DNA from: Petasospora fabianii
Lineage: Eukaryota > Ascomycota > Saccharomycetes > Phaffomycetales > Wickerhamomycetaceae
Direction: 5' to 3'
Length of the DNA: 64,000 nucleotides
Assembly: GCA_022641835.1 (NCBI GenBank)
Contig: CP048715.1
Location: 2,666,001-2,730,000, forward strand
Shown in pieces: positions 10,305 to 31,631 of this stretch. Below the pieces are notes generated by a model that saw nothing but the letters and a program-made list of their open reading frames with translations, did no database searches and had not been told where the DNA came from. The position numbers and the translations under genes are program-made. Each line of letters starts with the position of its first letter. Positions within the stretch are counted from its first letter, which is position 1.

Positions 10305-11513
10305 CTAGCGCCCCCGCATCACAGCGGTTCCAGTCCTAACAAACTCTTTACCATTATCTGGGTCAACATTCTTACAGTACACGTTGTACTCCATTCCACT
10401 TTTACATCCAATCTCCTTCAATGGCTTGTCCAATGGCAATGGCACATCATCGAGGAAGTAAGCAAAGTGACATTGTGGCAAGCTGAACTTCTTGGCGAAC
10501 CTATCAGAGACATATTTCGTTGGTGCCAAATCACGACTTGTAAAAAGGACAGGGTCCTCAAGATCTGGATGGAAGAACTTCAGAACTACATCAAACTTGG
10601 CGAGGGCTGTTATACCATCGGATACCATTGGATGACACGTCCAGCAGCTGTACATCTGTTCCGGGAGTGTGTGCTTGACGAAAATCACGTCTCCGTTGGT
10701 GAACCCTAGGTCATCAAGTGAAGCCTTTTCATCAGTGGTCGTTATTTCTTCCTGTCCGTCATGTTTGAAAAATTTGAGTTTGTCAACCTTCGTTGTGTAT
10801 GGAATGGTTTTGATAAAGGTGTTAATGGCTGACTTGAGGGGCCATTTCGGTTTGGCGTAGATGGTCTCTTCGACCTTCAGACATGGAAAGCGGAATGTTA
10901 GCTCTGTGCGTCTCGGTCCTGGTAACCCCACTGTTAATTCAGCGATTTCAGATGTTTTCGTCACTCTTTTCGAAGTTTCTGGCTCTGAATGTGTTGGTTC
11001 TTCGACTTGTTGTTTGGGTATAAGGTCCCCCTGAATGGGTGACTTTGAAGATTGTGGTTTTATAACTGGATGTTCCGTGGCTGTTTCTTGAACAGCAGCT
11101 GCAGAAGGTAAAAGTGTAGTTTGATTCGGCTGGGTAAGGAGGCGAAGGACGATGACATCGCCATCTTGAAGTCGAATAGACTCCAGCGTCTCCGATGCTT
11201 GTAGTTCTCTGTCCTTGTACAAAAATGTAATCGCTTCGAGAGGTACTCCACGATTCTTTGAGACGGACTTGAAGAGCTTCTCTAATTTTGTCCTCTTAGA
11301 GGCGGAGAAGTCTATTCTTTCATCTCCAATCGTGATGGTAAATGAGATGGGGGGTTGCGATACCTTTTGACGCTTGGATGGTGGATTCAGCTCCAGAGAT
11401 GTTGATGTTGTTGTATTCTCCTTCAGGACACCAACGAATCTAAATTGGTCCGTTTTTGAGGCAGTGGATGGGGTATCTGTATCCTTGCTATCAGGTAGAC
11501 TCGAAGGAGACAT
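10305..11513 (-). CDS. Poly-ubiquitin-like-domain protein, family member 1 (three domains)
   Basis: Not a gene I recognise; only the fold can be read. 402 residues: a Ser/Thr-rich start with a basic patch (PPSKRQK, residues 44-50, possible nuclear signal), then three segments with the beta-grasp pattern of ubiquitin-like proteins at about 56-126, 203-281 and 307-382. The first is the most SUMO-like. It has two beta strands, the helix LEKLFKSVSK, the FLYKD turn and a closing LQDGDVIVLRL strand like the DGDVI ending of SUMO and Rad60/Esc2 SUMO-like domains. The second closes with FTNGDVIFVK. The protein ends MRGR without Gly-Gly, so it does not look like a conjugated modifier. Same-strand relatives lie at 19693, 28023 and 30015. 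A strongly diverged Esc2/Rad60 relative is the main alternative. The frame is long, unbroken and starts with ATG, so the gene is well supported even though its role is not. Confidence 0.85.
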   Translation of the reverse strand: MSPSSLPDSKDTDTPSTASKTDQFRFVGVLKENTTTSTSLELNPPSKRQKVSQPPISFTITIGDERIDFSASKRTKLEKLFKSVSKNRGVPLEAITFLYKDRELQASETLESIRLQDGDVIVLRLLTQPNQTTLLPSAAAVQETATEHPVIKPQSSKSPIQGDLIPKQQVEEPTHSEPETSKRVTKTSEIAELTVGLPGPRRTELTFRFPCLKVEETIYAKPKWPLKSAINTFIKTIPYTTKVDKLKFFKHDGQEEITTTDEKASLDDLGFTNGDVIFVKHTLPEQMYSCWTCHPMVSDGITALAKFDVVLKFFHPDLEDPVLFTSRDLAPTKYVSDRFAKKFSLPQCHFAYFLDDVPLPLDKPLKEIGCKSGMEYNVYCKNVDPDNGKEFVRTGTAVMRGR

Positions 11514-11705
11514 GGCTCGAACTAATTTGAACTATATGTTATCGAAGTGTTTAAAAGATGTAGTCCGAACCCGACTCTACTTTCTGCCTCCACAATTCGC
11601 TCGCTTACGTCAGCGTGCCCAGAGGCACGGAGCTGCCCCAGTTTCGAATCTTTCAAGCGGACTAGAACAACGTTGTCAGCTCTATAACATTATGTATTTT
11701 GGTGG

Positions 11706-12995
11706 TCACGCATTGACTAGTTCAAGACTTGACTGACTTTTCTCAATCACCGCAGGAGGGAAGGCCAGATTATCTCTATGCGCCACATACTCCGAGTCAG
11801 CATAACCCAACAAGCCTTCAATCTGGTGTGACTGACAGCCTTTGATTTTTTCAATCTCCGTAGAAGTGTAATTAACTCTTGCCCTTCCAATCTCCACTGT
11901 TGCCTTGGATGAGTCCCACGTTCCATCCTTATTCTTTTGACCAACTTTGATAGCGACACACTCGTGCTCGTGAAAGACACCTTCAACGGCAATGATTCCA
12001 ACTGGTAACAGACCCGCTTTGTTTGTGCGCGTAAGTGCCTCATGAGCACCTTTATCAATTATGATTGCACCATGTGTATGAAGACCATGAAGCATCCAGA
12101 ACTCACGGTTCTTGACATGTTTATCACGGCCGATGAAACGAGTGTGGAGTGGAACGTTGTTGTCTTGGAGTTCCTTGAGAATGCGGACCTGCTTCTCTTC
12201 AGATGTCTCAGTAGCTGGTTCTGGAGTCTTCTCGAGATGCGAAATGTAGTTCACAATCTTCCAAAGATTTTCTGGTTTATCACTTTGCATGATCACCATT
12301 GTAGTTCCTGCCTCTGTGGCAAGGTCCGCGGCGATGAGCTTCGTCGTCATACCACCTGTACCAACATCACTTCCAGAAGAGCTTGTGTCCACTTTGAGTT
12401 CTTCCATGTCATCCACAACAAGCACTGGCTTAGCAGTTGGATCTGTTCTTGGATTTGCCGTGTAGAGACACTCCACATCGGTCATAAGGAAGAGATAATC
12501 TGCACCGACGAGTGCAGCTGTGATGGCGCTCAGTGTATCATTATCACCAAACTTGATCTCCGCAACCGAGAGCGTATCGTTCTCATTAACAATTGGCACA
12601 ACACCCATCGATAGCAGCTCGTTCATTGTGTTCTGGGCATTCTTATATTGCGTCCAATCGGAAATATCGTTCCTCGTCAGCAACACCTGGGCGATTCTCT
12701 GGTTAAGCTGTGCAAACAATGAGTCCCAGCGACCGATAAGCTTACTTTGACCAATAGCAGCAAGGGCTTGCACCTGCGACAGCTTCTTTGGACGTCTATC
12801 AAGACCCATCGTCTTCAGTCCAACGGCAATACCACCAGAACTCACAATCACTACTCGATGACCTGCCCTGCGAAGACGCACGACAGTCTCGACTATGAGC
12901 GACATCGTGGCCAGGCGTGGCTCTTTCGTGTTCTCATCCACAAGCGAGGACGTACCCAGCTTGATTACTATAGTGTACTTCGTTTCCTTAGTCAT
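11706..12995 (-). CDS. PRO1: Glutamate 5-kinase (gamma-glutamyl kinase)
   Basis: Phosphorylates glutamate with ATP in the cytosol, the first committed step of proline synthesis. The chosen ATG at 12995 gives 429 residues against about 428 in S. cerevisiae Pro1. The amino-acid kinase domain begins at once with [12 protein letters not shown], followed by [11 protein letters not shown], the substrate loop [10 protein letters not shown] and the GTGGMTTKL segment. The last 100 or so residues form a PUA domain, as in other fungal and bacterial glutamate 5-kinases. An in-frame ATG at 13055 would add 20 residues rich in Arg, Ser and Thr without acidic residues. Homologues start at the inner Met, so the longer form is treated as optional (see findings). 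It is divergent from QNS1 across 221 bp. In S. cerevisiae PRO1 neighbours BFR2; here BFR2 is about 10 kb away, with inserted genes between. Confidence 0.97.
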
Positions 12996-13216
12996 TGGAG
13001 GTCTGTAGTGGGAGTAGAAGAATGAAGAAACAATGGTTCTCCTCAAATGTGTCATCGATCTGAGTGCATTGGTACTCGAAAGAAATCAAACGAGTTCGCC
13101 TATTCGCGCTTACATCAGGACACCACTGATATCACGATGATTTGTCTTAGATGCTAATAGGGCTTACAAACTGACTCACTATCTCACCCGTATATTCTCA
13201 AATTGCTATCGCTACA

Positions 13217-15358
13217 ATGGGTCACCTAATCACAGTTGCAACCTGTAATCTCAACCAGTGGGCTCTGGATTTCGAGGGTAACAGAGACCGCATTCTCGAA
13301 TCCATCAAACAGGCGAAGGCTAAGAAGGCCACTCTTAGAGTTGGACCTGAGCTCGAAATAACTGGTTATGGATGTCTGGACCACTTCCTCGAACAGGATA
13401 TCTATCTCCATAGCTGGGAAATGTACTGCTCTATTATAACAAACCCAGAAACATACGGAATTCTGCTCGATATCGGTATGCCTGTCATCCACAAGAACAT
13501 CAAGTACAACTGTCGTCTTATCTCATACGATGGTAAAATACTTCTCATCCGTCCAAAGCTCTGGCTCGCTAATGATGGTAACTACCGTGAGATGCGTTAC
13601 TTCACTCCATGGCAGCGTCCTAGACACGTTGAGAAGTATCTACTGCCACGTATGATTCAGAAGGTCACTGGTCAGTTGGAAGTTGACTTCGGTGATGCCG
13701 TGATTTCTACACTCGACACAGTCATTGGAGCAGAAACATGTGAGGAGCTTTTCACCCCTCAATCCCCACACATTGAGATGGCATTGGATGGTGTCGAAAT
13801 TATCACCAATTCGTCTGGATCCCATCACGAGCTTCGTAAGCTCCACACACGTATGAACCTTATCAAAGAGGCAACTACCAAGTGCGGTGGTGTCTACCTT
13901 TACTCCAATCAGAAGGGATGCGATGGTGATCGTCTCTACTACGATGGATGTGCTCTCATTGTTGTCAATGGTGAAGTTGTCGCGCAGGGTAAGCAATTCT
14001 CTCTCTTGGACGTTGAGGTCATCACGGCTACTGTTGACCTCGAAGAGGTTAGGGCCTACCGTTCCCAAATCTCATTTGGTCTTCAATCCACAAAGTCTCC
14101 ATCATACGACCGTGTTCATGTACCAGCTGAACTTTCACCACAGCAGATTACATTCAACCCATCAATTGCTCCAACTAAGTCCCAAGAAATCTTTTACCAT
14201 ACCCCAGAAGAAGAAATTGCTTTAGGTCCAGCCTGTTGGCTCTGGGACTACATCAGACGCTGCAATGGTGCGGGGTACTTCCTTCCTTTGTCTGGTGGTA
14301 TAGACTCGTGTGCAACTGCTGTGATTGTCCACTCCATGTGTCGCTTAGTGGTTGGTGCTGCCGGAAAAGGCAATGAACAGGTGATCAAGGATGCTCGTAA
14401 GGTTTCTGGATTGCCTGTTGATGATGAATACATTCCTAGTGATCCAGTAGAGTTTGCTAGCAGGGTATTCCACACGGCCTACATGGGTACCAAGAACTCG
14501 TCTAAGGAGACTAGAGACAGGGCTAAGGAGTTGAGTGAGAAAGTTGGTTCCTATCATGTGGACCTTAATATGGACACCCTTGTCGAGGCCGTGGTCACAG
14601 TGTTTGAAGTTGCTACTGGTAAGAGACCGGTATTCAAGATCTTTGGTGGTACGCAGACTGAGAATTTGGCCCTGCAAAACATTCAGGCTCGTTTGAGAAT
14701 GGTGTTGGCATATTTGTTTGCTCAACTCTTGCCTTGGGTGAGAGGTAGACAGTGGGGTGGTCTGCTTGTGCTGGGATCAGCTAACGTTGATGAATGTCTC
14801 AGAGGATATCTCACTAAGTACGACTGCTCTTCCGCTGATATTAACCCAATTGGCGGTATCTCCAAGACTGATTTGAAGAAATTTATTGCATACGCTGAAA
14901 CTGAATTCAACCTTCCTGTTCTCAGAGATTTTCTGGAGGCCACACCAACTGCTGAGCTAGAGCCAATCACTGAGACCTACGTCCAAAGTGATGAGATCGA
15001 TATGGGTATGACCTATGAGGAGCTCTCCGTATTCGGACGTCTGAGAAAGATTCAGAAGTGTGGTCCATACTCAATGTTCTTGAAATTGTACCACAACTGG
15101 ACCCCACGCCTCACCCCTCGCCAAGTTGCGGAGAAAGTCAAGAGATTCTTCTTCTTCTACGCCGTCAACAGACACAAGATGACCACTATGACTCCGGGAT
15201 ATCATGCTGAGCAGTATTCGCCAGATGATAACAGATTTGATCTCCGTCCATTCCTCATTGACCCAAGATTCCAGTGGGCTTCTAAGAAAATAGATGAGAT
15301 TGTGGAGCAGTCTGAGAAGGGAAATACTGGCGATTTGGAGGAGTTGACTGTTGAATAA
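13217..15358 (+). CDS. QNS1: Glutamine-dependent NAD+ synthetase
   Basis: Last step of NAD+ synthesis: amidates nicotinic acid adenine dinucleotide with ammonia released from glutamine. 713 residues, against 714 in S. cerevisiae. The N-terminal nitrilase-type glutaminase domain carries the Glu45-Lys114-Cys175 triad (in [20 protein letters not shown] and GAETCEELF). The C-terminal synthetase domain shows the PP-loop SGGIDSC and the acidic [15 protein letters not shown] segment. Two CTG codons at 14761-14772 encode conserved leucines in [13 protein letters not shown], which fixes CTG as leucine here. The frame is complete with no anomalies. It shares a 221 bp promoter with PRO1 and converges on PIH1 with 121 bp between. 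Expected in cytosol and nucleus, from the family. Confidence 0.99.
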
Positions 15359-15479
15359 GTATCAAATGCCTGATCAATAAACTCATAATATACACGTGCT
15401 TACGTTTAAATGATAGATTAAGGGCCTTCTCTGTCCGCTAAAGTACTACTTAGATTCAAGGGATTCCATTAATTTACTG

Positions 15480-16433
15480 TCACTTGACCAGCACAACGAG
15501 TTTTTGCTCTCTCTTGATGAAAAATGATTTGATCTCTGGATTTTGGAACATTGTGGGCAGTGGAAGAATGAGGTCTTTGGCCTCAACCTGTGGGTTCATA
15601 TTCTTCAGCACGAGACTCTTGGTGGAGTGATCCAACGAGAGGTCGTAATCCAGTGATGATGAGTTCTGCGACGTTATCTCGATCATTAGTTTATGCCCAC
15701 TTTCAGTGTCCACCTTCCTCATCGTAGTCGCATACTTAAGCTTCGTACTACCTTCAGCTTGTGTTGTTTTACGGATTGGTAGTGACTGTTGTTTCTTCGG
15801 CTCGATAGTAAGCTCGTTGATCTCCTGAATGAGCGGCTTTCTCCCATTGCTCACCGATGGACCAAGAAGTTCGACGTTCGTATCGAGATTATCATCATTC
15901 TCCTCGACGATTCTCTTCATATCCAACAGCTCGGAAATTTCAGAAACACCACCCTGCTCCTTGCTCTGGTCCTCCTTTACCCATTCAACGACACCTGGTT
16001 TGCCCTTCGATACCATCTTCGGTATCGAAATCTTCTCTCGGTCCAAGGTACACTCACTTCTCACCTCCACGCTTTCCAAACACCACTCAATGACAATCTC
16101 CCTCAGCTGCTTATCGTTCTGGACCCATCTCATCGCGTCACTGTTGATAACACAGTCAAACACAATGCACTGATCACCCTTCTTATCAGTGTCCAGCCGA
16201 TGTGATGATGTGACAATCGGAATTTCCCACTGATCTGACATGATCAATTTGTACGTCTCAGGCGGCTGAAAAGGGCTAGAAGGGGGCGGAACAAGTGAGG
16301 AAGAGCAGATGTTGGTGAATAGCTTAGTATTAGGAAGGTAGTTCAGTAATCCAGAGGGCTGGACCAGCCGCGTCTTTACTGTGAAGTGCGGTGTGGGCTC
16401 AATCAGAATAATGTCATTAGTATCTGTGAGCAT
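15480..16433 (-). CDS. PIH1: R2TP complex subunit Pih1
   Basis: Scaffold of the Rvb1-Rvb2-Tah1-Pih1 (R2TP) Hsp90 co-chaperone, needed for box C/D snoRNP and PIKK assembly. The ATG at 16433 gives 317 residues (S. cerevisiae about 344). Residues 1-150 form the PIH1 domain: LPNTKLFTNICSSS, then VFDCVINSDAMRW and CTLDREKISIPKMVSKG near its end. A variable acidic linker follows, then a C-terminal CS-like beta domain of about 80 residues ending FFIKREQKLVVLVK. The frame continues 71 codons upstream to 16646, but that stretch has no PIH1-like sequence and the domain begins right after the inner Met, so the inner start is preferred. It is divergent from the porin-like gene. PIH1 and a MATE gene (ERC1) are close neighbours in S. 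cerevisiae, as they are loosely here. Confidence 0.9.
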   Translation of the reverse strand: MLTDTNDIILIEPTPHFTVKTRLVQPSGLLNYLPNTKLFTNICSSSLVPPPSSPFQPPETYKLIMSDQWEIPIVTSSHRLDTDKKGDQCIVFDCVINSDAMRWVQNDKQLREIVIEWCLESVEVRSECTLDREKISIPKMVSKGKPGVVEWVKEDQSKEQGGVSEISELLDMKRIVEENDDNLDTNVELLGPSVSNGRKPLIQEINELTIEPKKQQSLPIRKTTQAEGSTKLKYATTMRKVDTESGHKLMIEITSQNSSSLDYDLSLDHSTKSLVLKNMNPQVEAKDLILPLPTMFQNPEIKSFFIKREQKLVVLVK

Positions 16434-16857
16434 GATTTCGAGTGGCCAAATTGAATGGAGTTTATTATTCGATCTGATGAGGAAGAGAGCGTTGAAGAGG
16501 AAAGACGGCCAGGGCCACGAATACAATGTGTTCGCGACGGGACTCACCCGAGCACCACCTTCACTTACAGGTCTCCGAGGGCCGACGGAAGTAAGAAGTT
16601 TCACCACCTGGAGGTCTCTTACAAACATCATCCAAAGTTTCACCAAGCCACCAAGTCAGTATGGACGCTGCATGCATCAGATTATCCAAAGGTTCCCCTT
16701 AGAAATCCCCTGTTTACTGAAACATCCATATTATTCCATATCGAGCGAGTTCGCGCAATGATATGCGCACTACTCAGTCGCTATGATCTTCCCCAGTGGT
16801 GTACACATAGATCTATGTACTCTGTTGGGAGGTGCATTTTGAGCACTTGATACTATC
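16434..16857. other. PIH1 / porin intergenic promoter region
   Basis: Divergent 424 bp spacer. Open frames here are extensions or antisense of PIH1 and show no family resemblance. A stop at 16840-16842 closes the porin frame just upstream of its ATG. No RNA gene or strong motif was seen. Confidence 0.5.
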
Positions 16858-17709
16858 ATGCCCTTGCCCTTTGGAGCCATTGGTCAAAAATGTGTGCCAA
16901 TATTGTCCACTCCATCCCAGGTTTCCGCATCTTTATCGTATGACGCCGACGACCAGCATTCTTTCCAGCTGTCCTCATCATACACGATCGAAGCACGGCC
17001 GGATGAAGACCAAGGAAAGGGTCGTTTCTCGTACAGGTGGAATGATGATGCTACCAAGTGGGGCTACTCTCTTATTCTTGGAGACGGAGTCGTCTCAAGT
17101 AAGGTTGACCTCACGTTCACGCAGAAGATCAGGGGAGATCTGACCGTATCTTCGCACAAGGGAGGCGAAATATCTGGCTCCAAGTTACATTTGGTGGTAC
17201 GGGAAGAGGCGATTTATGCAAAAGTCTGGTATGATCTTTTCAGAAAAAGGGCTATTCTCGAAGGTGTTGCCGGTAAAGGTCCTTGGTCATTCGGACTTCA
17301 ACTCGCAGGTGATCCAAGAACCACACCCGTGTCATGTGTCCTTGGGTACTCTTACATGAATATGGATCTGAGTGCATCGACCACAGCAGAATTGAGCAAA
17401 TTGTCTATCACTGCATACTCTAAAGCTTCCGAAGATCTGAAATTGGCGTCCAGGCTTTCGATGAATAGTAAATTGCGCAAACTTGAGATTGGTATGAAAT
17501 ATGCATTGGACCATACTACTGCCGCAAAGCTGAAGCTCGAAAAAGGTTTCTCTTCTCGCAACTCTGAATCCAAGAGGATAAGTAAGATCGGTATGACCTT
17601 ACAAAAGGAGGTAACAAAGGGTGTGAATATTGGCTTGGGATCGACCATTGATCTACAGGGACAGAGGTTCCCAGTGCTCGGATGTACTCTCTCCTTCAAC
17701 TCTAGATGA
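16858..17709 (+). CDS. Divergent VDAC-like mitochondrial outer-membrane porin
   Basis: Probable eukaryotic porin (Porin_3 family, VDAC/Por1/Por2 group), a 19-strand beta barrel passing metabolites through the mitochondrial outer membrane. 283 residues, the same length as typical VDACs. No helical membrane segment is present; the sequence is a run of alternating polar/hydrophobic strands. The C-terminus GVNIGLGSTIDL...LGCTLSFNSR follows the family ending (a glycine strand, then K/R-x-LG-x-x-L-x-F). The N-terminus MPLPFGAIGQKCVPIL can be laid on the short VDAC N-terminal helix. Overall similarity to Por1 is weak, so this may be a fast-evolving second porin rather than the main one. An in-frame stop at 16840 makes a longer single exon impossible. 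Tom40 or Mdm10 are less likely from length and ending. A (GAT)n tract directly follows the stop. Confidence 0.62.
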   Translation: MPLPFGAIGQKCVPILSTPSQVSASLSYDADDQHSFQLSSSYTIEARPDEDQGKGRFSYRWNDDATKWGYSLILGDGVVSSKVDLTFTQKIRGDLTVSSHKGGEISGSKLHLVVREEAIYAKVWYDLFRKRAILEGVAGKGPWSFGLQLAGDPRTTPVSCVLGYSYMNMDLSASTTAELSKLSITAYSKASEDLKLASRLSMNSKLRKLEIGMKYALDHTTAAKLKLEKGFSSRNSESKRISKIGMTLQKEVTKGVNIGLGSTIDLQGQRFPVLGCTLSFNSR

Positions 17710-17720
17710 TTCAAACGTGT

Positions 17721-17762
17721 GATGATGATGATGATGACGATAACGATGATAATGATGATAGT
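17721..17762. repeat. GAT trinucleotide microsatellite
   Basis: Imperfect GAT/ATG repeat of about 42 bp between the convergent porin and LTV1 genes, outside coding sequence. Likely length-variable between strains. Confidence 0.85.
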
Positions 17763-17896
17763 GGTGGTATCCACTGAACTTCTACGACATGCGAAAATGA
17801 CATATAGCTAGAGATGATTATAAATTAGAACGCCGTAAACAATTGATGAATGCAAAATAATAACTCATGAAGACATGACAACGCGTGAGCAACCTT

Positions 17897-19171: not shown

Positions 19172-19692
19172 GGTGACTTTTAGCCTGTGTGTATAAAGTG
19201 TGGAGTGTCAAATATCATTATGCTTGATTGAGATGGGTTCTTAAATTTTTTTGGTGAGGGCATCGCGTGGTGTCCGGATGTGCTCTTTGAAGAGACGGAT
19301 TTAAGCGGAATCCCCAGGCAGACATCTATTACTCGTGGCAAGGCTTTCTACGCGATTAGCTACATTAGTTTCACTTTCTCGTGGCTCGTCGGCTCAATGA
19401 AGATTATAGGGGTTAGTCACATGACTGTTCAGCTATGTGGGATTGACAGGCATGTATGTAGCCTAATTGGTAGTTCTCTGAGTTTCTCTCCATCAACATC
19501 AACAGCGCCGTGAGTTTTACCTCCTTCACGATGGGTTCGCTCTAAATGGCTATGGTTGATACGAGAAATTGGGCCAGCACCAATATTATTGGTGATGGCG
19601 ATGATAATCATAATGATTGGTTGTTGCTTAGTCTGAAAAGTTGGGCTGTAGAGGGTGATAGTGGGTTGGTGATCTTGCGATCGTGGTCAATA
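19172..19692. other. LTV1 upstream / poly-Ubl gene 2 downstream spacer
   Basis: 521 bp between two minus-strand genes, holding the LTV1 promoter at its left side. Short open frames look random. Nothing else was identified. Confidence 0.5.
19242..19266 (-). promoter_or_regulatory. RRPE/PAC-like pair of LTV1
   Basis: Read toward LTV1 it gives GCGATG, a short gap, then AAAAAAATTTA, about 70-95 bp upstream of the ATG. The A/T tract resembles the ribosomal-RNA-processing element (Stb3) and the GCGATG core resembles PAC (Dot6/Tod6). The PAC match is partial. Confidence 0.5.
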
Positions 19693-20832
19693 CTATGATT
19701 CAACCAGGTGATGTTCGTTCGGCCCTAGCACCTCAATGACGTTCTCCTGGCTTCCTGGTTTGAAATTCAGCAGACCAACCGTGTCACTCCTATTCAGCAC
19801 TGTTTTGCCCCGCAGAAACATTAATGATTTCACGTCCAAGTCAGCGACTTCTGCAAATTGCTCCATTAATGTTCCGATTAAAGTCTCCTGCTTTGTGCGA
19901 TAAAGCATCTTGTGGCCGACACCAACAATGCAGACCACCAAATCAGTACTACTCACATCAATCTTGTCCACGAAATTGGCCACAACAGCTGTAACTCTGT
20001 AGGAATTAACTCCACCGAGTGCGGACTTGATTACTTTCCCAAAATTGTCCCTGAAACCCCCAGGCTCACGCATCTCGACGAAGCTTCTAAACCACTTTCT
20101 TCCTGGATCAAGTCCCAAATCAGTTAACAGCTGATCAGGAAGGATTTCAGTATCTTTCTTGTATGTAAAGAGAAGCTCTGATATTGGGACATCAATACGA
20201 GCTGCAATTTTCTCCATAGCCCTCCCAAACTTGATGTTGTTGTGGTACCAGAGTTTTTTGATCTTGATCTGTCTTCCGTCAGGGAATGGTTTGAACTCAA
20301 ACGCAAGAATAATCTCAAACGGTTCTAACTCTCTCCCGCTAAATGGACCAAACTCAAAACTTCCTTCTTCCTCTTCAATATCATCGTTTTCCTCCTGTGC
20401 CGCATCGCTCTCACTCTTTTCATCACCGTCATTTATCTTATTGATACTGGTACCCTTGACTAAGTATGCTGCTTGAGTACTTGGCGGGAAGCAGTCTTTC
20501 ACCAGTTTCCTTGGGTCCAATTTCTTTCTCCTCCATTCATAGACATACTCGTCCCATGAAGAACCTGTCTCTTCAAGACACAGATCGAGAGCCTCGGATA
20601 ACGGTCTGTCTATGGGAAATTCAAACGTGCGTAGATGTGGCACGCCCATGATTTCGAGCGTTATCTGAAGCTTTTGACGACGCTCCGACTGTGAACATGC
20701 TTTAGATTGGATAGCCTTCGGTGTAGTGGGCTTTTTGGGCCGTTTGATGGTGAAGGATAGGTCTGATGATTTAGAGGTCTTGGATGCCTTAGACGATGGA
20801 CTGTTTTTGGTAGAACTCCATTCACCAGCCAT
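19693..20832 (-). CDS. Poly-ubiquitin-like-domain protein, family member 2 (three domains)
   Basis: Function not recognised. 379 residues: a Ser/Lys-rich head with a basic patch (IKRPKKPTTPK, about 29-39), then three beta-grasp-like segments at about 55-127, 172-255 and 297-370. They are separated by an acidic linker (EENDDIEEEEG, about 148-157) and a 40-residue spacer. The third segment has the clearest ubiquitin-like order: strand DLVVCIVGVG, turn, strand, helix IGTLMEQFAEVADL, strand KSLMFLRGKTVL and end strand NVIEVLG. The second shows the same plan with KIAARIDVPISELLFTYKK. Similarity to member 1 is in pattern more than in letters, so the duplication is old or fast-evolving. There is no Gly-Gly tail. 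It lies between LTV1 and the MATE transporter, transcribed in the same direction as both. ATG at 20832, no break. Confidence 0.83.
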   Translation of the reverse strand: MAGEWSSTKNSPSSKASKTSKSSDLSFTIKRPKKPTTPKAIQSKACSQSERRQKLQITLEIMGVPHLRTFEFPIDRPLSEALDLCLEETGSSWDEYVYEWRRKKLDPRKLVKDCFPPSTQAAYLVKGTSINKINDGDEKSESDAAQEENDDIEEEEGSFEFGPFSGRELEPFEIILAFEFKPFPDGRQIKIKKLWYHNNIKFGRAMEKIAARIDVPISELLFTYKKDTEILPDQLLTDLGLDPGRKWFRSFVEMREPGGFRDNFGKVIKSALGGVNSYRVTAVVANFVDKIDVSSTDLVVCIVGVGHKMLYRTKQETLIGTLMEQFAEVADLDVKSLMFLRGKTVLNRSDTVGLLNFKPGSQENVIEVLGPNEHHLVES

Positions 20833-23590: not shown

Positions 23591-25171
23591 ATGGCTAAGA
23601 AGTCACTTTCTGAGCAGATTGCAGAACTTATCAAGCCTGCCACACGTGACTACGACATCGAAGACTTCGAGCGTGGTGTCTTCGATCAGTCTTCTGATGA
23701 AGCTGGTTCTGGGGCAGAGTTGGATGATGACCAGGCGAAGAATGAACACTATGTTAAGGTTTCAAAGAGTAAACTGAGGCAGAATAACATTGATTTGAGG
23801 GATGAAAAGTACAAGGGTAAGACATCTTCGAGAAAAGCGATCTTCGAGAGCGAAGATGACGACCAAGAAGATAGCGATGAGCATAATGATGATGATTCCG
23901 ATGGAGAAGACATCGAAGAAGCGTCCGATGACGAAGAGAGTGATTCCCTCGGTGAAGGTGGAGATGGCCTAATTGATGATGAGGCTGAAGAAGCTTCAGA
24001 TGATGAAGACTCTGAAGGTGTTGCTGACTCTGAAGAGGAGACTAGCAAGTCAGCATCTTCCCTCACAAGCTCCGGTGGTGAGACATCTGACTCTGAATCC
24101 GATACACAGACAGGTTCTGATACCGAAGAACCTCAAGATTTCAAGAGAAATAAGCTGAAGGAGCTCATGACGCAGGAACGTAAGGTCATGCTCAACCGTA
24201 TTTCTACATCTACACAAACTGATGCCTTGAAAGGTTTTGCTGTTATTTCTCAACAGAGACAGTTCGACAATATAATTGATGCTAGAATCAAGTTGCAGAA
24301 GGCTGTCCAGAGTGCAAATGCCTTGCCACTTAACAACGAGACTTTTGAAGAATTCCAGGAATCTAACTCCGAAGAACTTCAAGCACAGGCAACCAACTCC
24401 CTCACAAATCTGCTGGACGCTCTCCTCTCACTAAGAACGAAAATTTACAACAAGGAGAAGGTCATGAAGGAGCCTCTGAAGGTAACCATCAAGAAGAGAA
24501 CACTTTCTGAGTACCTCAGTGAAACGGAAAATCTTGATGCAATTCTTAAAAAGAACAGAGAACAGGTGCTCACTAAGTGGTCACACAAGGTCCAGAGTGC
24601 ATCTGGTGCTCAGGCTCTTAATGCTTCGAAGTTCAAGGCATTGAATCAGGGCTCAGCCCAGCAAGTCGAGTCCAACCTCATGGATATGGATCGTCTTGTC
24701 AAGAGAACTCGTCTCAACAGAAGAAACGTTGTGCCGATGGGCCGCATCGAAGACGAGGAAATGGAGGATGACACAAACGCAGAGAAGTCACATATTGACA
24801 GATCACTTAAGGAGGATCCTGATGTGTTTGACGATGAGGACTTCTACCGTGTATTGTTAAATGATTTGGTGAATAAGAAGCTTACAGAGGGTGCTCCATC
24901 CGGTGGATTGGTCATTACAAAGACAAAGGTGAAGAAGAATGTCGATACAAAGGCATCCAAGGGTAGAAAATTGAAGTACACCGTTCAGGAACCAATTCAA
25001 AACTACGAAGCTCCAAATGGCTCTTTTAAGTGGGATGATTTGCAGATAGATGAGTTCTTTGCCGGATTGCTCGGCCAGAGGGTTGACTTTGCTGAAGGAT
25101 CTGACGACGACAGCAGCGAGGACGAGGAGAAGGAGATGTTGAAGCAAGATGGTGTCAAGTTGTTTGGATAG
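23591..25171 (+). CDS. BFR2: Nucleolar SSU processome protein Bfr2 (AATF family)
   Basis: Component of the 90S/SSU processome (with Enp2 and Lcp5) needed for 18S rRNA maturation in the nucleolus; homologue of AATF/Che-1. 526 residues against about 534 in S. cerevisiae. The N-terminus SLSEQIAELIKPATRDYDIE is family-typical. A long Asp/Glu/Ser tract covers about residues 85-185. The AATF domain spans about 185-345 (KLKELMTQERKVMLNRIS, then TKWSHKVQSASG). The C-terminal TRAUB domain includes DPDVFDDEDFYRVLLNDLV and APNGSFKWDDLQIDEFFAGL. The frame is complete with ATG at 23591. It converges on AVT3, 112 bp away. Confidence 0.96.
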   Translation: MAKKSLSEQIAELIKPATRDYDIEDFERGVFDQSSDEAGSGAELDDDQAKNEHYVKVSKSKLRQNNIDLRDEKYKGKTSSRKAIFESEDDDQEDSDEHNDDDSDGEDIEEASDDEESDSLGEGGDGLIDDEAEEASDDEDSEGVADSEEETSKSASSLTSSGGETSDSESDTQTGSDTEEPQDFKRNKLKELMTQERKVMLNRISTSTQTDALKGFAVISQQRQFDNIIDARIKLQKAVQSANALPLNNETFEEFQESNSEELQAQATNSLTNLLDALLSLRTKIYNKEKVMKEPLKVTIKKRTLSEYLSETENLDAILKKNREQVLTKWSHKVQSASGAQALNASKFKALNQGSAQQVESNLMDMDRLVKRTRLNRRNVVPMGRIEDEEMEDDTNAEKSHIDRSLKEDPDVFDDEDFYRVLLNDLVNKKLTEGAPSGGLVITKTKVKKNVDTKASKGRKLKYTVQEPIQNYEAPNGSFKWDDLQIDEFFAGLLGQRVDFAEGSDDDSSEDEEKEMLKQDGVKLFG

Positions 25172-25283
25172 ATAATGAACATTACGATTTGCATTATAGA
25201 TCTTTGAGGTAGACTATTCTAGGACAAATACAAACAATAAACAAGATGACAACAATGACTTATCGATAAGGTATCTGTATCAA

Positions 25284-27494
25284 TTACTCGTTCCACGTAA
25301 GCAGTGTCTGAGCAGATGTATACACCATCATGACCATACCAAGACAGAACAAGGCGTAGTCAGCAATCTTTTGACGCGACGTTGTAGTATCTAGCTTGGA
25401 GTGCAACAATGGAGGGTATACGTAGATGAGTGGGACACAAGCGACGCTTCCAATAACCGAGACAAATTTATCCAGGTTGGACGCACCGCCCCATCCCGCG
25501 AGAGCAGTGATGAAGACAAGACCAGCTCTGAATGTATTCTTCCTCCATTTGACCTTGTTGTTGTACTTTCCAGAACGCTTGAAGATTCCATGTTCGAGGA
25601 TCTTGATGGCGGGGAATAACTGCAATGGAGTGGAAAGAAGAATTGCCATCGCATAGAGGAACTGAGTTGCGCTAACGAATGGACTGTTTTGTGGGAAGTT
25701 GAGCAAGATCACAGTTTGAGTGTCATCACCAAAGGCGAGGTAACCAACAAGACCAGCAGACACGAACACAACTGTTACAGTGACCATGACCCAGAAGAGT
25801 AACATTGGGAACTTGCTTGGCTGCTTCATGGACTCCTGAATTGGAATGAGGAGACCGATACCTTCGTATGTGAAAATTGCCGTTCCAATGAAAACGGTCC
25901 AGTCCTTGTTAAATGGGCGGATTGGTGCAATTCCATTGTTAATTTGAACGGTAGAACAGTAAAAGTAGACATAAATCAAACCCAGGAAAATGAACAGGTC
26001 GGCAATGAGTGCTGTGAAAGACAACTTGGCGATATTTCTGGTGAGTGACAGTGGAATGAACACGACCATCTGGGCAATAATGAAAAACTCAATTGAGAAG
26101 AGTTTGTCAAAAACAGAGTGTGTGAAAGCTTGCAAATTTGTGGCTGTGAAGACAATGTAAGCAGCAGCAAAACCAATCTGCGAGAGTACGATGGAGCACA
26201 AGATTGAGAGTCTCATGTTACTACCAAACAAGACACCACCGAGGTCACCATATGAGCCCTTTCCCAAGGTTGTCTTCGTATTGATCAAGAGCATGAAACA
26301 GTAGTATGATAGTATGGAAAAGAAAAGCAAAGCAGTTGTGGAAAACAACCAGCCAGCATTTCTGGCACCACGTGGAAGAAACAGGACACCAGTACCAATA
26401 AATGACTTCAGCAACAACATCACAGCCTTTGTGGAGGTGGCCTTATGTGCTTCTTCCCGCTGTCTTCTTGGAACACTCTGGAGAAGCAGACTTTCTTCAT
26501 CGGCATCTCGATCACCCTCACCTTCTTCTTCGTCTTCATCTTCATCATCACTCAACTCTTCACCGGCAAAGTGTCCATATAAAGTTAGGAATTCAATGAA
26601 GTTTCTGGTCACGAACGTTGGTGGGGTGAAATCACCATTGTGCAATCCCTTCTTGGTAGCCTTCTGCACTATAAAACTTCTTCTAAAACCTCCGGGAACA
26701 CGGATATCGTGAACAGCAAAATCTGGTGGCTCCACCGAGTTCATGGTGCTAGAGGCTGCACCGATGGAACCGGAGAAGGACATGGAGCGACGGCGAGAAA
26801 CCGCAGCGGGAGAGTGGGCACGTTTCCAATTGTAGAGTTCACGAGTTGTATCGCCACCTTGAAGTTGGAGAGAGTCGAATTGTTCATCGTTGGAATTTTG
26901 TGGAGCCAGATGGTTGTTGGAATTGGAGATGATGGATTGGGAATCAGATACGAGATGGCGACTAATGGTGTCAAGCACCGATTGGTCTGGGTTACGGACA
27001 TCAACTTCAGAGGAGAGAACGGTTGGTTTCATAGGCGATAAACGTCCCGACAGACGAGAACCGGGACGTGAGGGATATTCTAAGTTCTGATGGGACAGCT
27101 GTGGAGAGGGTTGGTGAATGATCGGCGTGTCCTTCCTCAGCGACTCAGATATGAGAGTTGAGATTCCCGAAATGGATCCTCTTGAATGCCTCTGCGCATT
27201 GGAAGTGCCTTCATGGGTATCCTTTTGAGGCTCGTCATGACTCCCGAGGTCTTTAGCACTTGACTTGTTGAAACCACCTTCGATCTTAGTGGCCTTGGAA
27301 TCATCAGCATTAACGGTGTTGGCACATTTGCTGCCCGATGAGCTCTGTGGCTCGGTTTCCAATAGGGATGCTCTTCTCAAGTGTTTGGTTGAAAAGTCAC
27401 CGATTTTGAAAGACTCCTCAAGATCGTCCCCCGATCCCCTCATGGACCTCGAGAGCGACTGGAACCTATTTTGACGTGAGTTTGAAGATGACAT
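25284..27494 (-). CDS. AVT3: Vacuolar neutral amino acid exporter (Avt3/Avt4 type)
   Basis: Amino acid/polyamine transporter of the AAAP family; Avt3/Avt4 export neutral amino acids from the vacuole. The first true ATG is at 27494 (upstream in-frame codons are GTG), giving 736 residues against about 692 (Avt3) and 713 (Avt4). Residues 1-345 are a polar, Ser-rich cytosolic region with an acidic cluster (ELSDDEDEDEEEGEG). About eleven membrane segments follow, starting with KAVMLLLKSFIGTGVLFLPR and including GSYGDLGGVLFG, FTYEGIGLLIPIQESM and FAVGYLAFG-like VSAGLVGYLAFGDD. Avt3 and Avt4 are S. cerevisiae duplicates. The name Avt3 is preferred only because YKL146W belongs to the same YKL block represented here; by function either fits. 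The long Ser/Arg-rich head is a likely phosphorylation region. Confidence 0.93.
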   Translation of the reverse strand: MSSSNSRQNRFQSLSRSMRGSGDDLEESFKIGDFSTKHLRRASLLETEPQSSSGSKCANTVNADDSKATKIEGGFNKSSAKDLGSHDEPQKDTHEGTSNAQRHSRGSISGISTLISESLRKDTPIIHQPSPQLSHQNLEYPSRPGSRLSGRLSPMKPTVLSSEVDVRNPDQSVLDTISRHLVSDSQSIISNSNNHLAPQNSNDEQFDSLQLQGGDTTRELYNWKRAHSPAAVSRRRSMSFSGSIGAASSTMNSVEPPDFAVHDIRVPGGFRRSFIVQKATKKGLHNGDFTPPTFVTRNFIEFLTLYGHFAGEELSDDEDEDEEEGEGDRDADEESLLLQSVPRRQREEAHKATSTKAVMLLLKSFIGTGVLFLPRGARNAGWLFSTTALLFFSILSYYCFMLLINTKTTLGKGSYGDLGGVLFGSNMRLSILCSIVLSQIGFAAAYIVFTATNLQAFTHSVFDKLFSIEFFIIAQMVVFIPLSLTRNIAKLSFTALIADLFIFLGLIYVYFYCSTVQINNGIAPIRPFNKDWTVFIGTAIFTYEGIGLLIPIQESMKQPSKFPMLLFWVMVTVTVVFVSAGLVGYLAFGDDTQTVILLNFPQNSPFVSATQFLYAMAILLSTPLQLFPAIKILEHGIFKRSGKYNNKVKWRKNTFRAGLVFITALAGWGGASNLDKFVSVIGSVACVPLIYVYPPLLHSKLDTTTSRQKIADYALFCLGMVMMVYTSAQTLLTWNE

Positions 27495-28022
27495 ATTCGT
27501 GTGGGGCACGGGCCGAGACGGTGATATTGTGCAGTGTGTGACTGTGGTTGTGTGCGTTCGAGCCGGGGTGTGCTTGCGGTCAGGGAGATCTCGTTCAATT
27601 CGGCACGAGCAAAGAGAAGAGCTCTTTGGATTTCACAACGAGCTTCTTGGTTTAACCTATTTATTGCCTTTTGGTCTTCGGTCGAGGTACAAAGTTTCTC
27701 GGAAACAACGAATAACCCGCACACCAGTTGTGTGGCCCTGCCATCACATCATTGATTCCAACGTTACCAAGGAAACAGGGAAAACGAAGCGCTGTAAAAG
27801 TGTTATCTCGTCTCATCTAACTGTACGGAAATCAACGTTCGTATAATGATCCGGGATCATTCACTTATAATTACGAAAAGTCTTTCATGAATTGCCAATG
27901 ATCTATTCTGTCACCTACTTGGTGCCGCTTCTCAATTTAACATGGTGGTATGTTGCTACAGTTATCAGTGGTAGCTAAAACTAGTCGTATAGAGCTATTA
28001 CACTTCACGGGTCACATCTATA
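27495..28022. other. AVT3 upstream region
   Basis: 528 bp between minus-strand genes. It contains a GTG/TGTG-rich stretch just upstream of the ATG (27525-27575). No conserved coding or RNA gene was seen. Confidence 0.45.
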
Positions 28023-29459
28023 TCAAACATCAATGACCTGGAACACATTGACCCGGTCTTTCGTCAAGCCAAGATCACGGGCGAATAGTCCCTCTTTCAG
28101 CTTGATACCTTCATAAATAAGAGCAGTCTTTGATGGATCGACCCCCATGCGTTTGGAGTACACGCGTATCATCTTCTTGACCGAACAGTTATTCGGAACG
28201 ACAAATGTGAGTGGTTCGGCACCCCCTTCAAGACTGAGGGTGTACTTGTTGCTATACGGATTGGATGAGGTCTTTGTCACGGTGGTTTGATTGTTTGCTT
28301 GGTTCTCGTTTGCGATCAGCGAAACAGTGGTATCATGCTGTACTCCAAGTATTGAAGGAGATGGGGATGAGGGAATGAGGGCATATGAGGCAGCTTGTTT
28401 GCTTGGGGAAGAGCCATCTTCAGAGCCTGGATTACTTGTTGGTGGAGAAGACAGCTTGTATGTGTCAAACATCTTGGTCTCCTTCGTTGGTGAAGATACG
28501 ATCGGTTTGATATCGGATCCTTCTAGGATAGCTTCTTCTGTTGTTTGGCGAATTGGTGCTGGCAGTTTGAACTTACCACGCAAGGACATCAAAACAGTCA
28601 TATGATCTTCATGGGGAGCAAGACCTGCTTGCAATGTGGTCATGGAACCTTTAACAATTCGTCCCTTATGTAGACAAAACAGTTGTTTTGGATCAACCTC
28701 TAGCACTGCCGCAATCTTATCAAGGGCATCATTCATAAGGGATGAGCGTCGGATAGTGATGTCAATTGGGCTGATGTGTGGCTGTGTGCGTACCTTGAAA
28801 GTGACTATGACGGGCGTAGAACATGTATCTGATGGTGTAGAGGTAGGGATGGATTCAATTGATGGAACCACAACCAGTTTTTCCAGGTGGTTCTTTTCCA
28901 ACTCTGCCTTTGGGACCCTTGGAATATAAAAGTGATTTCGTTTTGATCTGGCGTAATGTTTCGGGGCAAGAACTCGTTCCTTTGTGTCGTTCTTGATACG
29001 GTCTTTGAAGGCAAGATCATCGAGATCCTCGTTTTCTGAATTTATTGTGTTGACAGATTTGTCCATTTTTGATGCAGTTCTTTTGCCGTCAGCTTCAAAA
29101 TTGTCACCAGATTCGTCTCGTTGGTATATTGCTGGAATAGAGATCTGGTCATGAAGCACTAAACGGAAGTGTGCAATACGACCTTTCTGCTTCTTTGGGA
29201 AGACATCCGACATTAGAGCGTCACGAGAGAGTTCGACACCACGACACATGATCATGAAGTCATCAACGGAGCAGTCAATGAATTCAGCGATGACATTGAA
29301 GAGTGGCAGTAGAGGTGACGATCGTTCAATGTTGGCGATGAGCTTGGGGCCAGCCTTGGCGTTATGATCAATATTAATATGGAGACGGTCAGACAAAGTG
29401 CCCTCTTTGGTAGACGTGGTTTCTTCTGAAGAAATGTAAAATTCCTTAACTTTCATCAT
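28023..29459 (-). CDS. Poly-ubiquitin-like-domain protein, family member 3 (three domains)
   Basis: Function not recognised. 478 residues with beta-grasp-like segments at about 25-104, 215-295 and 405-478, joined by long polar linkers. The middle one carries VDPKQLFCLHKGRIVKGSMT and closes with HMTVLMSL. The block QLFCLHKGR recurs in the last domain of the neighbouring gene at 30015, direct evidence that the two are paralogues. The final domain is SUMO/Rad60-SLD-like: LTFVVPNNCSVKKMI (strand and helix), VDPSKTALIYEGIKLKE and end strand RVNVFQVIDV at the very C-terminus, without Gly-Gly. LVVVPSIE (195-202) could be a SUMO-interacting motif, a weak inference. Two Mets open the frame (29459, 29456). 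Two MluI cell-cycle boxes lie upstream. An Esc2/Rad60 identity is possible but unproven. Confidence 0.85.
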   Translation of the reverse strand: MMKVKEFYISSEETTSTKEGTLSDRLHINIDHNAKAGPKLIANIERSSPLLPLFNVIAEFIDCSVDDFMIMCRGVELSRDALMSDVFPKKQKGRIAHFRLVLHDQISIPAIYQRDESGDNFEADGKRTASKMDKSVNTINSENEDLDDLAFKDRIKNDTKERVLAPKHYARSKRNHFYIPRVPKAELEKNHLEKLVVVPSIESIPTSTPSDTCSTPVIVTFKVRTQPHISPIDITIRRSSLMNDALDKIAAVLEVDPKQLFCLHKGRIVKGSMTTLQAGLAPHEDHMTVLMSLRGKFKLPAPIRQTTEEAILEGSDIKPIVSSPTKETKMFDTYKLSSPPTSNPGSEDGSSPSKQAASYALIPSSPSPSILGVQHDTTVSLIANENQANNQTTVTKTSSNPYSNKYTLSLEGGAEPLTFVVPNNCSVKKMIRVYSKRMGVDPSKTALIYEGIKLKEGLFARDLGLTKDRVNVFQVIDV

Positions 29460-29542
29460 CAGTGGATGGTGATTCCTAGTGAGTATAAGTTCAGTATTAC
29501 GTTCTCAAGGGAGGTACCTTGATGCGTGTAATCTGGCTCCCA

Positions 29543-29548
29543 ACGCGT
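29543..29548. promoter_or_regulatory. MluI cell-cycle box upstream of poly-Ubl gene 3
   Basis: ACGCGT, 84 bp upstream of the gene 3 ATG. This is the MBF (Mbp1-Swi6) core for G1/S transcription in yeasts. A second copy lies at 29756. Confidence 0.45.
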
Positions 29549-29755
29549 CATGAAAATCTGGGTGGTGCACGTAATTTCCCGATTGAGAAGTGATTGTCGT
29601 GGGGAAGTTCCCCGGTTCTTCTTTGAAGCCAATCGGTTTTTGGGAAAAACTTTACTCAAACAAAACTTCGCAGCATTGGGTAGCTTTATTATAGTGGCAC
29701 TTACTCCTTTCACGCCTGGACGGTGGGCCACAGGTTGTTAGTCCGATTGTCTGAC

Positions 29756-29761
29756 GCGTTA
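29756..29761. promoter_or_regulatory. Second MluI cell-cycle box upstream of poly-Ubl gene 3
   Basis: ACGCGT, about 297 bp upstream of the gene 3 ATG. On its own such a hexamer is common; its value lies in pairing. Confidence 0.35.
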
Positions 29762-30014
29762 CCACAGTGTCTTGGTTTCGTGTTGGTTTCGCGTGGGGAA
29801 TACTTGGGTTCATTGACATCATTTTCACACGAGTTCGTACCATTTCCATTGACTTCTGAATTTATCACTTCGAATGGTACAGGAATATACAGCATCACTA
29901 CATTTTAATTAATGTATATATCATATCATTCATTAGTAGTCGGTTCATGAAGACACCTCTCTTCTAAGAGGGGACGAAGTCATAATCCAAACTAGTCGTC
30001 GGTGGTTTCTCTGA

Positions 30015-31631
30015 TCAGACGATATCACCGGGGTATGGCTTGTTGTAATCACGGATAGTTGTCATGATATTCCCATGTTTCTCTCCGCTGCGGATACCAG
30101 CCTGGGCGACTGTCATGCCTGCCTTCACCACACGTCCTTTATGCAAGCAGAACAACTGTTTTACCTCAACACCGATAGACTTGGCCAGTTGGTCAAGAAC
30201 ACCATTATCAAGTGTAGCTCCGCGTGTTGTCGTAAATGTCTGCGGGTTCAGATTATACTGAGGAGGGAAGTTGAATGTGAGAGTAATTTCTTCCTGGGAA
30301 TCAATGGGTGATAGTCTTGATAGTGGTTCGTCATGGAGAGAAAGTGAGACAGGAGAGTAGTAATCCACACAGAGATTAATGTGTTTTGGCAATGGTTTAA
30401 ACACCTCCTTGATGAGCTTGTTCTTTGGTACAGTAACGCCTTGATGTGTGACCAAAAGATCCTTAGCAGTGCAACTCATCTCTTTAGACACTGGGTCAAG
30501 AGCATTTTTGATGGTATCTGACTTTCCACAAGCCTTGAATCCAACAGTCGCGCCATATGGCATCTTGAATTGGATGTAGATCAGAGAAGACTCAAATTGG
30601 TTGTCGTCCCTTTTGTGCCACCCTGGTGAGTGTTTCCCGACAATGTGAACTTCCTTCGTCCCATATGGGACAGCTTCTGATGGTGTCTCTAGTTCATGGA
30701 CCTCTTGATCACCGACAAAGAATCTTAAATCCTTTGATTTCAAGCCAGCAAAGTCTGCAACGTGTCTAAATGCACGAAAGAAGGTATTTCTTGGATACAT
30801 CTCAAACGTAGCGGTTCCTTCATCTAAGATCTCCACCCTCACTGTGATCCTATTCCATTCAACGTCATCATATTCTGGTTGTGTGTAGTCCACTCGCAAA
30901 TCATCCAATGTTTGTGGTTCTTCAAAATGGAGCTCAATCTTCTCCTGTGTGGTTAGAACTGCTTCCAATTCACCGAGGGTGCTTCCTGCTGGGAAAGCAT
31001 CCACCGTAGTCATGGTTGGAAGGATCTCCTTATCATCTACCATGAATCGAAGGTCTTTGAATGGAACCTTGACAAGATCTGCAAACTTCCGAAGAAGAGA
31101 GCCAAGCTTAGTTGTTGGTCCTGGGGCCTTGCATGAGAATGATTCGTCTTGGAACTTGACGATAAGAGAGGTGATGTTTGTAACACGGCGCGGTCGATTA
31201 GGCTTCTTGACTTCAAGACGTAGAATGTGACAGTTCTTTGGAATAAGTTCACTAATTGGGGAGTTGCGAGAGATCTTCTTGTCCTTATGGTAGACATCAA
31301 CGGCTGTGAGGGGAACACCGATAGTGTCGGCAAATGATGTGAGTGCATGGCGGATGGTGGATGTGTGAGATCTGCTTTTCTTGGTGAGATCAGTTTTGCC
31401 GTCTGTGATAAGAATAGTGATCCCGTTTTTTTGCGGTGACTCGTCATCTTGTGGACGTACTTTTTTCCTCGAGCGATGTAATTTCTTATGACTAGAATTG
31501 ATGAGTGTTGGCGGTGGAGTTGTGGCCGAGATGGGTGTTCTTGAAGACCGTGTACGGGTAAACTCGGAGGAGCATCCAGCTTCGTCAGCTTCCACAGTTG
31601 TGGTTCCCGGTGAGGATAAGATGATTGACAT
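30015..31631 (-). CDS. Poly-ubiquitin-like-domain protein, family member 4 (five domains)
   Basis: Function not recognised; the largest member, 538 residues. After a Ser/Thr/Pro-rich head with a basic patch (HKKLHRSRKKVRP, 48-60, likely nuclear signal), five beta-grasp-like segments follow at about 70-142, 153-226, 260-333, 349-425 and 447-527. Each repeats the plan strand, turn, strand, helix of the type LRKFADLVKVPFKDLRF, then a short D/G turn and end strand. Segments 2 and 3 share the wording VPFKDLRFMVDDKEI and GLKSKDLRFFVGDQEV, pointing to internal duplication. The last carries VEVKQLFCLHKGRVVKAGMT, shared with gene 3. The protein ends YPGDIV, with no Gly-Gly. The five-domain string suggests a rigid scaffold rather than a modifier. 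Two ACGCGT boxes 21 bp apart lie 85-111 bp upstream. ATG at 31631. Confidence 0.86.
   Translation of the reverse strand: MSIILSSPGTTTVEADEAGCSSEFTRTRSSRTPISATTPPPTLINSSHKKLHRSRKKVRPQDDESPQKNGITILITDGKTDLTKKSRSHTSTIRHALTSFADTIGVPLTAVDVYHKDKKISRNSPISELIPKNCHILRLEVKKPNRPRRVTNITSLIVKFQDESFSCKAPGPTTKLGSLLRKFADLVKVPFKDLRFMVDDKEILPTMTTVDAFPAGSTLGELEAVLTTQEKIELHFEEPQTLDDLRVDYTQPEYDDVEWNRITVRVEILDEGTATFEMYPRNTFFRAFRHVADFAGLKSKDLRFFVGDQEVHELETPSEAVPYGTKEVHIVGKHSPGWHKRDDNQFESSLIYIQFKMPYGATVGFKACGKSDTIKNALDPVSKEMSCTAKDLLVTHQGVTVPKNKLIKEVFKPLPKHINLCVDYYSPVSLSLHDEPLSRLSPIDSQEEITLTFNFPPQYNLNPQTFTTTRGATLDNGVLDQLAKSIGVEVKQLFCLHKGRVVKAGMTVAQAGIRSGEKHGNIMTTIRDYNKPYPGDIV

Follow-up and report, generated by a model that had tools for sequence, protein, structure and literature searches.

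A cluster of four Petasospora fabianii genes encoding a family of putative tandem SUMO-like domain proteins

We analysed a 64,000-nucleotide stretch of the genome of the yeast Petasospora fabianii (contig CP048715.1, positions 2,666,001 to 2,730,000; hereafter the window) and found on its minus strand four genes, P1 to P4, whose products share a repeated domain related to SUMO. Each protein would combine a flexible head or linker with three to five beta-grasp domains, and none ends in Gly-Gly. Tentatively, and with somewhat less than even confidence, we regard the four as a locally duplicated fungal family of non-conjugatable, multi-domain SUMO-like proteins, most likely nuclear adaptors of the kind represented by Rad60, Esc2 and NIP45. 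All four open reading frames (ORFs) lie exactly where an earlier note on this DNA had placed them, each with an ATG and a stop codon. Judged by the codon usage of 12 neighbouring genes (BFR2 included, PIH1 excluded; standard genetic code), their own frame was the best of six in every case, with a modest signal of 0.13-0.19, compared with 0.55 for BFR2 and 0.17 for PIH1.

The proteins contain 14 segments of 74-87 residues (three each in P1, P2 and P3, five in P4) that align as one pattern. Because the segment borders were chosen by eye, three tests then asked whether the pattern exceeds chance. Hidden Markov models (HMMs) built with one protein left out recovered the held-out P1, P2, P3 and P4 (24.5, 33.0, 51.1 and 94.3 bits, 33.0 being the score of P2 and 94.3 that of P4), and these scores were reached by no scored shuffle (504-562 of 1000 per protein were scored). 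When single domains were left out, 12 of the 14 scored above every one of the 1000 shuffles and 654 background windows, the latter cut from 23 neighbouring genes; P2_D1 was marginal (2/1000 shuffles, 0/654 background windows) and P1_D2 unsupported (82/1000, 15/654). Thus the count of about 14 segments, three to five per gene, given in the earlier note stands for the alignment, less firmly for P2_D1 and not for P1_D2. The stricter test, in which the whole protein was withheld and each domain scored, was clean for 10 of 14, the exceptions being P1_D2 (84/1000, 19/654), P1_D3 (9/1000, 2/654), P2_D1 (5/1000, 0/654) and P3_D3 (8/1000, 0/654), the last of which has separate but sub-threshold Pfam support. 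Pairwise Z scores among the 14 domains averaged 2.15, with 25 of 91 above 3; control windows from unrelated neighbours averaged 0.09, with 4 of 300 above 3, one of 300 above 5 and a maximum of 6.2. Identity is very low (5-22% to the first alignment row), and aligning the four proteins over their whole length told us little. No further member was found among the 703 stop-to-stop ORFs of at least 40 amino acids (aa) in the window, where no outsider had an E-value better than 0.24.

Sequence profiles and one predicted fold relate the family to SUMO and ubiquitin. Pfam places ubiquitin (1.5e-8) slightly ahead of Rad60-SLD (6.9e-8) in P1, finds Rad60-SLD in P3 at 7.3e-5 (23.0 bits, narrowly short of the 23.8 cut-off) and ubiquitin in P4 at 0.025; P2 has no match in Pfam or NCBIfam. 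A profile of all 14 domains, searched against the PDB, found Smt3 at 5.7e-11. After omission of P1_D1 and P3_D3, the two domains that Pfam sees best, the 12-domain profile still matched a redesigned ubiquitin (1.4e-6), Smt3 (5.1e-6), the ubiquitin-like domain (UBL) of Rad23 (6.2e-5) and NIP45, the NFATC2-interacting protein (7e-5). The earlier note had suggested structure prediction and a fold search. An AlphaFold2 model of P2_D3, for which the other 13 domains served as the alignment, had a predicted local distance difference test score (pLDDT) of 95.1 and a predicted template modelling score (pTM) of 0.82, with the strand-strand-helix-strand-strand order of a beta-grasp. Foldseek gave SUMO as its best match (probability 1.00, template modelling score (TM) 0.88), and among the 50 PDB fold matches listed 46 were SUMO or SUMO fusions, judged by title, the other four being one ubiquitin variant, one ubiquitin-like domain and two ISG15 chains. 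The beta-grasp fold is therefore confidently predicted for P2_D3 only; the remaining domains are assigned to it through profile relatedness, which in the domain-out test links 13 of the 14 segments, one of them marginally. Of 11 core positions, 9-11 are hydrophobic in every one of the 14, while surface residues vary. The proposal of a beta-grasp, SUMO-like family is supported by the profile, the model and the leave-out tests.

We considered whether the proteins might instead be tandem-UBL proteins that regulate the ubiquitin or proteasome system, not the SUMO system, and that resemble Rad23, ISG15 or the tail of USP7/Ubp15. USP7 carries five tandem UBLs, and its consecutive domains recall the arrangement seen here; P1 has a weak Rad23 match (NCBIfam 9e-4, 18.5 bits against a cut-off of 207), the Rad23 hit of the 12-domain profile points the same way, and USP7_ICP0_bdg appears weakly in P1 (Pfam 0.015) and P3 (0.017). 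However, the Pfam matches listed for P1 to P4 include no protease, UBA or STI1 family, and SUMO leads the fold matches; we judge this explanation improbable. Polyubiquitin, ISG15 and FAT10 likewise hold tandem UBLs in one chain, whereas here the Gly-Gly ends are missing and the domains are far from identical. Multi-UBL proteins such as USP7, ISG15 and FAT10 are already known, and the family extends a known kind. Among the open-licence PMC matches listed, in the portions of text available, we noticed no fungal family with at least three SUMO-like domains per protein, which is weak evidence of novelty.

SUMO/Smt3 itself shares the beta-grasp fold with the family, and P1 is significantly similar to it through D1 (E about 6e-7); it differs in its C-terminal Gly-Gly and single domain, and the interaction residues of SUMO are incomplete in most of the domains found here. 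The four proteins end in MRGR (P1), LVES (P2), VIDV (P3) and GDIV (P4), so that none has the Gly-Gly tail, as the earlier note had said. With the C-terminal Gly-Gly absent, the proteins would be fixed arrays of docking modules rather than modifiers. Internal Gly-Gly pairs occur only in P2 (258-259 and 273-274) and P3 (412-413), and their number in the P2 linkers is not above chance (p 0.12). The pair at 258-259 stands directly behind P2_D2, at a spacing that by eye is roughly SUMO-like. Two traits had been overstated in the earlier note: a DGDVI-type final strand, said to close several segments, occurs as GDVI in two domains only, both in P1; and the basic or disordered heads are clearly basic in P2 (net charge +9) and P4 (+4), with +1 in P1 and -1 over the 22 residues that precede the first domain of P3. 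The polar heads of P1, P2 and P4 measure 53, 52 and 68 aa.

Two of the genes are clear paralogues. P3_D2 and P4_D5 are 40% identical (BLASTP 3.6e-15, Z 31.8); P3_D1 and P4_D4 are linked more weakly (Z 5.8, BLASTP 0.02), at a level that one control pair exceeded (Z 6.2). The first two domains of P3 are thus the probable counterparts, in the same order, of the last two of P4. Inside P4 the nearest pair is D2-D3 (Z 11.9), and all remaining links have Z of at most 7.4. Between P3_D2 and P4_D5 the proportion of synonymous differences (pS) is saturated at 0.80 while that of nonsynonymous differences (pN) is 0.40 (nonsynonymous divergence, dN, 0.57), which is consistent with an old duplication held under protein-level constraint by purifying selection. 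All four genes lie on one strand within about 21 kb, P1, P2 and P3 being separated by unrelated genes, and this clustering is consistent with local duplication.

The closest studied relative is plausibly Rad60/Esc2, which the earlier note had named. Rad60 of S. pombe, Esc2 of S. cerevisiae and NIP45/NFATC2IP of animals form the RENi proteins, which outside plants have two C-terminal SUMO-like domains (SLDs), separated in fungi by a long linker described as mostly helical (PMC549199). RENi proteins are further marked by a long N-terminal low-complexity region and by a group of negatively charged residues that lies 5-15 positions before the C-terminus. The family described here shares with them tandem non-conjugatable SUMO-like domains accompanied by putative low-complexity regions, the Pfam Rad60-SLD match and, in P3, a terminal domain of Rad60-SLD type behind a long linker; an acidic residue of this domain may stand at the Ubc9-docking place. 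A more specific explanation, overlapping with the adaptor reading, is that P3 represents the Rad60/Esc2 orthologue of this fungus, having gained an N-terminal domain, and that the other three genes are its diverged duplicates. The arrangement of P3 (an SLD and, beyond a long linker, a domain of Rad60-SLD type that closes the chain), the acidic residue at its putative Ubc9 position, the precedent of a long inter-SLD linker in fungal RENi proteins (PMC549199) and the domains shared in order by P3 and P4 speak for it. Yet P3 has three domains and the family 3, 3, 3 and 5 over four genes, where RENi proteins have two; moreover, the 56 chains that phmmer listed for P3 were SUMO, ubiquitin or their fusions, with no Rad60 or NIP45 chain among them. 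We therefore treat orthology as possible but on the doubtful side. That the family works like RENi is a reasonable statement; that it is RENi is not established, and the family may have its origin in a RENi-type gene.

We compared the domains with Smt3, SUMO1, SUMO2 and ubiquitin at known functional positions; at such low identity single alignment positions are uncertain. An acidic residue stands at the position of Smt3 D68, where Ubc9 docks, in four of the 14 domains: P3_D3, P1_D2, P1_D3 and P4_D2. In P3_D3 Glu450-Gly451 aligns to Smt3 D68-G69, a tentative placement made through the Smt3 alignment, and only this domain keeps both the following Gly of SUMO and its spacing. P1_D2 has D-G behind an insertion, in the unsupported domain, and P1_D3 and P4_D2 both have D-D. 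In the groove that binds SUMO-interacting motifs (SIMs), the position of Smt3 K38 is basic in 4/14 domains, K40 in 6/14, R47 in 4/14 and R55 in 3/14; all four are basic together only in P2_D2. In Esc2 the change D430R removes the binding of Ubc9 in vitro, and in Rad60 the corresponding residue, E380, mediates it; the residue sits in the second SUMO-like domain and in Esc2 supports Mms21-dependent sumoylation (PMC7891725). By analogy, the C-terminal domain of P3 would bring the SUMO E2 Ubc9 through Glu450, the second domain of P2 may offer a SIM-binding face, and the remaining domains would present diverged beta-grasp surfaces to other partners.

The same data admit a different explanation, that the modifier surfaces have been lost and the domains are generic interaction or oligomerisation modules with a lineage-specific role unrelated to SUMO or ubiquitin. 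The core is kept while the SUMO interaction residues are incomplete in most domains, and inter-domain identity is very low, which speaks for it; against it, P1_D1 and P3_D3 are still recognisable as SUMO/Rad60-SLD type and P2_D2 retains the basic SIM-groove residues, and we think it unlikely.

Several observations weigh against the adaptor reading. Those that concern P3 also count against its being an orthologue of Rad60/Esc2: it has no long N-terminal low-complexity region, only a head of 22 aa, and instead of the acidic cluster near the C-terminus its residues 464-474 (GLTKDRVNVFQ) hold one acidic and two basic residues. P3_D3 alone matches single SUMO chains weakly (phmmer best 0.0074, Smt3 0.013), and no RENi chain was found in the best 60 of 177 matches. 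The acidic E2-docking residue is absent from 10 of 14 domains, and 13 of 14 miss at least one of the four basic groove residues. SIM-like and nuclear localisation signal (NLS)-like motifs in the linkers are not commoner than in shuffles, and the single NLS-like match in each of the heads of P1, P2 and P4 had p 0.13-0.22 against shuffles. The 12-domain profile shows no sequence preference for SUMO over ubiquitin, and the model of full-length P4, folded without relatives, was not usable (pLDDT 35). Beyond the window, no homologue was retrieved from viral, bacterial and archaeal, or plasmid collections: P4 gave no pattern matches in viral contigs, the P3_D2/P4_D5 alignment gave 79 there with none confirmed, P1 gave 82 in bacterial and archaeal genomes with none confirmed, and P4 found no homologue in plasmids. 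Since these collections are not fungal, the negatives are uninformative on how broad the family is. Finally, Rad60 and its SLD2 bound no free SUMO, and Rad60 has an E2-independent role (PMC2946365) and is thus not only an E2 recruiter.

The view of the four proteins as nuclear docking scaffolds draws together the role of the acidic residue in Esc2 and Rad60, the E2-independent role of Rad60 and its failure to bind free SUMO. Of the SUMO-like scaffold imagined in the earlier note, the fold, the family and the non-conjugatable tandem architecture are supported; a role in the SUMO pathway is an inference, with the acidic residue present in four and a full basic groove in one of the 14 domains. 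A bolder version, which we consider unlikely as a whole, is that this lineage turned a Rad60/Esc2-type protein into poly-SUMO-mimic scaffolds with as many as five domains, and that every domain has specialised on its own partner (one recruiting Ubc9, one offering a SIM-binding face, the rest diverged). Such a division of labour, in sumoylation or in the control of Smc5/6, would be unfamiliar from model yeasts. Fission yeast cannot live without Rad60, and neither SUMO nor ubiquitin can take the place of its SUMO-like domains (PMC2946365). With roughly 14 such domains in these four genes, nature has supplied variants of which a few retain the E2-docking residue and most have lost it, and these would allow E2 recruitment to be separated from other roles of the folds. 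The genes and domains are listed in Table 1.

Table 1. Genes and domain segments of the family, in window coordinates; paired fractions give the shuffles and background windows that reached the score
Feature	Position	Strand	Description	Evidence
P1	10305..11513	-	402 aa; head that looks disordered, with the basic cluster PPSKRQKV, followed by three beta-grasp segments	ORF, translation, Pfam
P1_D1	11133..11354	-	aa 54-127; most SUMO-like of the family	phmmer of P1 against Smt3 about 6e-7; 0/1000, 0/654
P1_D2	10662..10910	-	aa 202-284; pattern only, NGDVIFV near end	domain-out 82/1000, 15/654; weak Pfam UBL_ZFAND1 0.16
P1_D3	10362..10604	-	aa 304-384	domain-out 0/1000 shuffles; protein-out 9/1000, 2/654
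P2	19693..20832	-	379 aa; basic head, acidic linker 128-169, three beta-grasp domains	profile of other three proteins, 33.0 bits
P2_D1	20452..20676	-	aa 53-127; marginal	domain-out 2/1000, 0/654
P2_D2	20065..20325	-	aa 170-256; four SIM-groove positions all basic; Gly-Gly 258-259 behind	0/1000, 0/654
P2_D3	19720..19947	-	aa 296-371; predicted beta-grasp	AlphaFold2 pLDDT 95.1, pTM 0.82; Foldseek SUMO TM 0.88
P3	28023..29459	-	478 aa; D1, long linker, D2, long linker, D3 at extreme C-terminus	ORF, Pfam, profiles
P3_D1	29145..29393	-	aa 23-105; probable partner of P4_D4	Z 5.8; 0/1000
P3_D2	28572..28820	-	aa 214-296; 40% identity to P4_D5	BLASTP 3.6e-15; Z 31.8
P3_D3	28026..28256	-	aa 402-478; C-terminal, Rad60-SLD-like, Glu450-Gly451 at putative Ubc9-docking position	Pfam Rad60-SLD 7.3e-5; Smt3 alignment
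P4	30015..31631	-	538 aa; basic head, five closely spaced beta-grasp domains	94.3 bits, leave-one-protein-out
P4_D1	31200..31427	-	aa 69-144	0/1000, 0/654
P4_D2	30945..31178	-	aa 152-229; nearest is P4_D3, Z 11.9	0/1000, 0/654
P4_D3	30624..30854	-	aa 260-336	0/1000, 0/654
P4_D4	30348..30590	-	aa 348-428	0/1000, 0/654
P4_D5	30042..30299	-	aa 445-530; dN 0.57 with P3_D2, synonymous sites saturated	0/1000, 0/654

The gene content of the window looks fungal, because a Pih1_fungal_CS domain protein, LTV1, a BFR2/AATF-type gene and other housekeeping genes surround the family. The earlier note had the family splitting gene pairs adjacent in S. cerevisiae (PRO1, BFR2), which is not supported in that form. 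Between its PRO1 (11706) and the BFR2-type gene (23591) we found, besides P2, an ORF at 13217, PIH1, a porin, LTV1 and a MATE transporter; with five unrelated genes also in between, the family alone does not split these two. Dispersal of the family by repeats or tRNA-linked elements was considered and rejected: ARAGORN (bacterial code) found no tRNA in the window, and the repeats in 10100-33700 (one 27-base direct pair and two inverted pairs of roughly 30 bases, 71-74% alike) include none that links two family genes. An upstream exon for P3 was also rejected; a GTAAGT donor is present 245 bases upstream of the gene, yet the sole CTAAC-type branch site in 700 bases is upstream of the donor.

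Other genes of the window gave minor observations. The 214-aa minus-strand ORF at 32317-32961, which has no Pfam match, is probably not a real gene, because the antisense frame has the stronger coding signal (0.315 versus 0.077). A plus-strand ORF of 355 aa at 33661, of the 26S proteasome regulatory subunit 7 type, seems to lack a start; an ATG at 33339 on the same strand probably begins a first exon, after which comes a 73-base intron (33456-33528, GTGAGT...GACTAAC) whose acceptor CAG lies 12 bases past the branch site. The 1148-aa minus-strand ORF at 57678-61124 matches the Pfam Aquarius N-terminal domains (4.9e-21) and ends in an AAA_12 helicase, and by these matches is an Aquarius-type intron-binding spliceosomal protein, in a window of mostly long single ORFs; S. 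cerevisiae is not known to have an Aquarius. A 195-aa minus-strand ORF at 56430-57017 has, close to its end, a match to only the first part of an FHA domain (2-30 of the 67 profile positions, narrowly below the cut-off), which suggests a spliced gene of SNIP1/Pml1-like kind.

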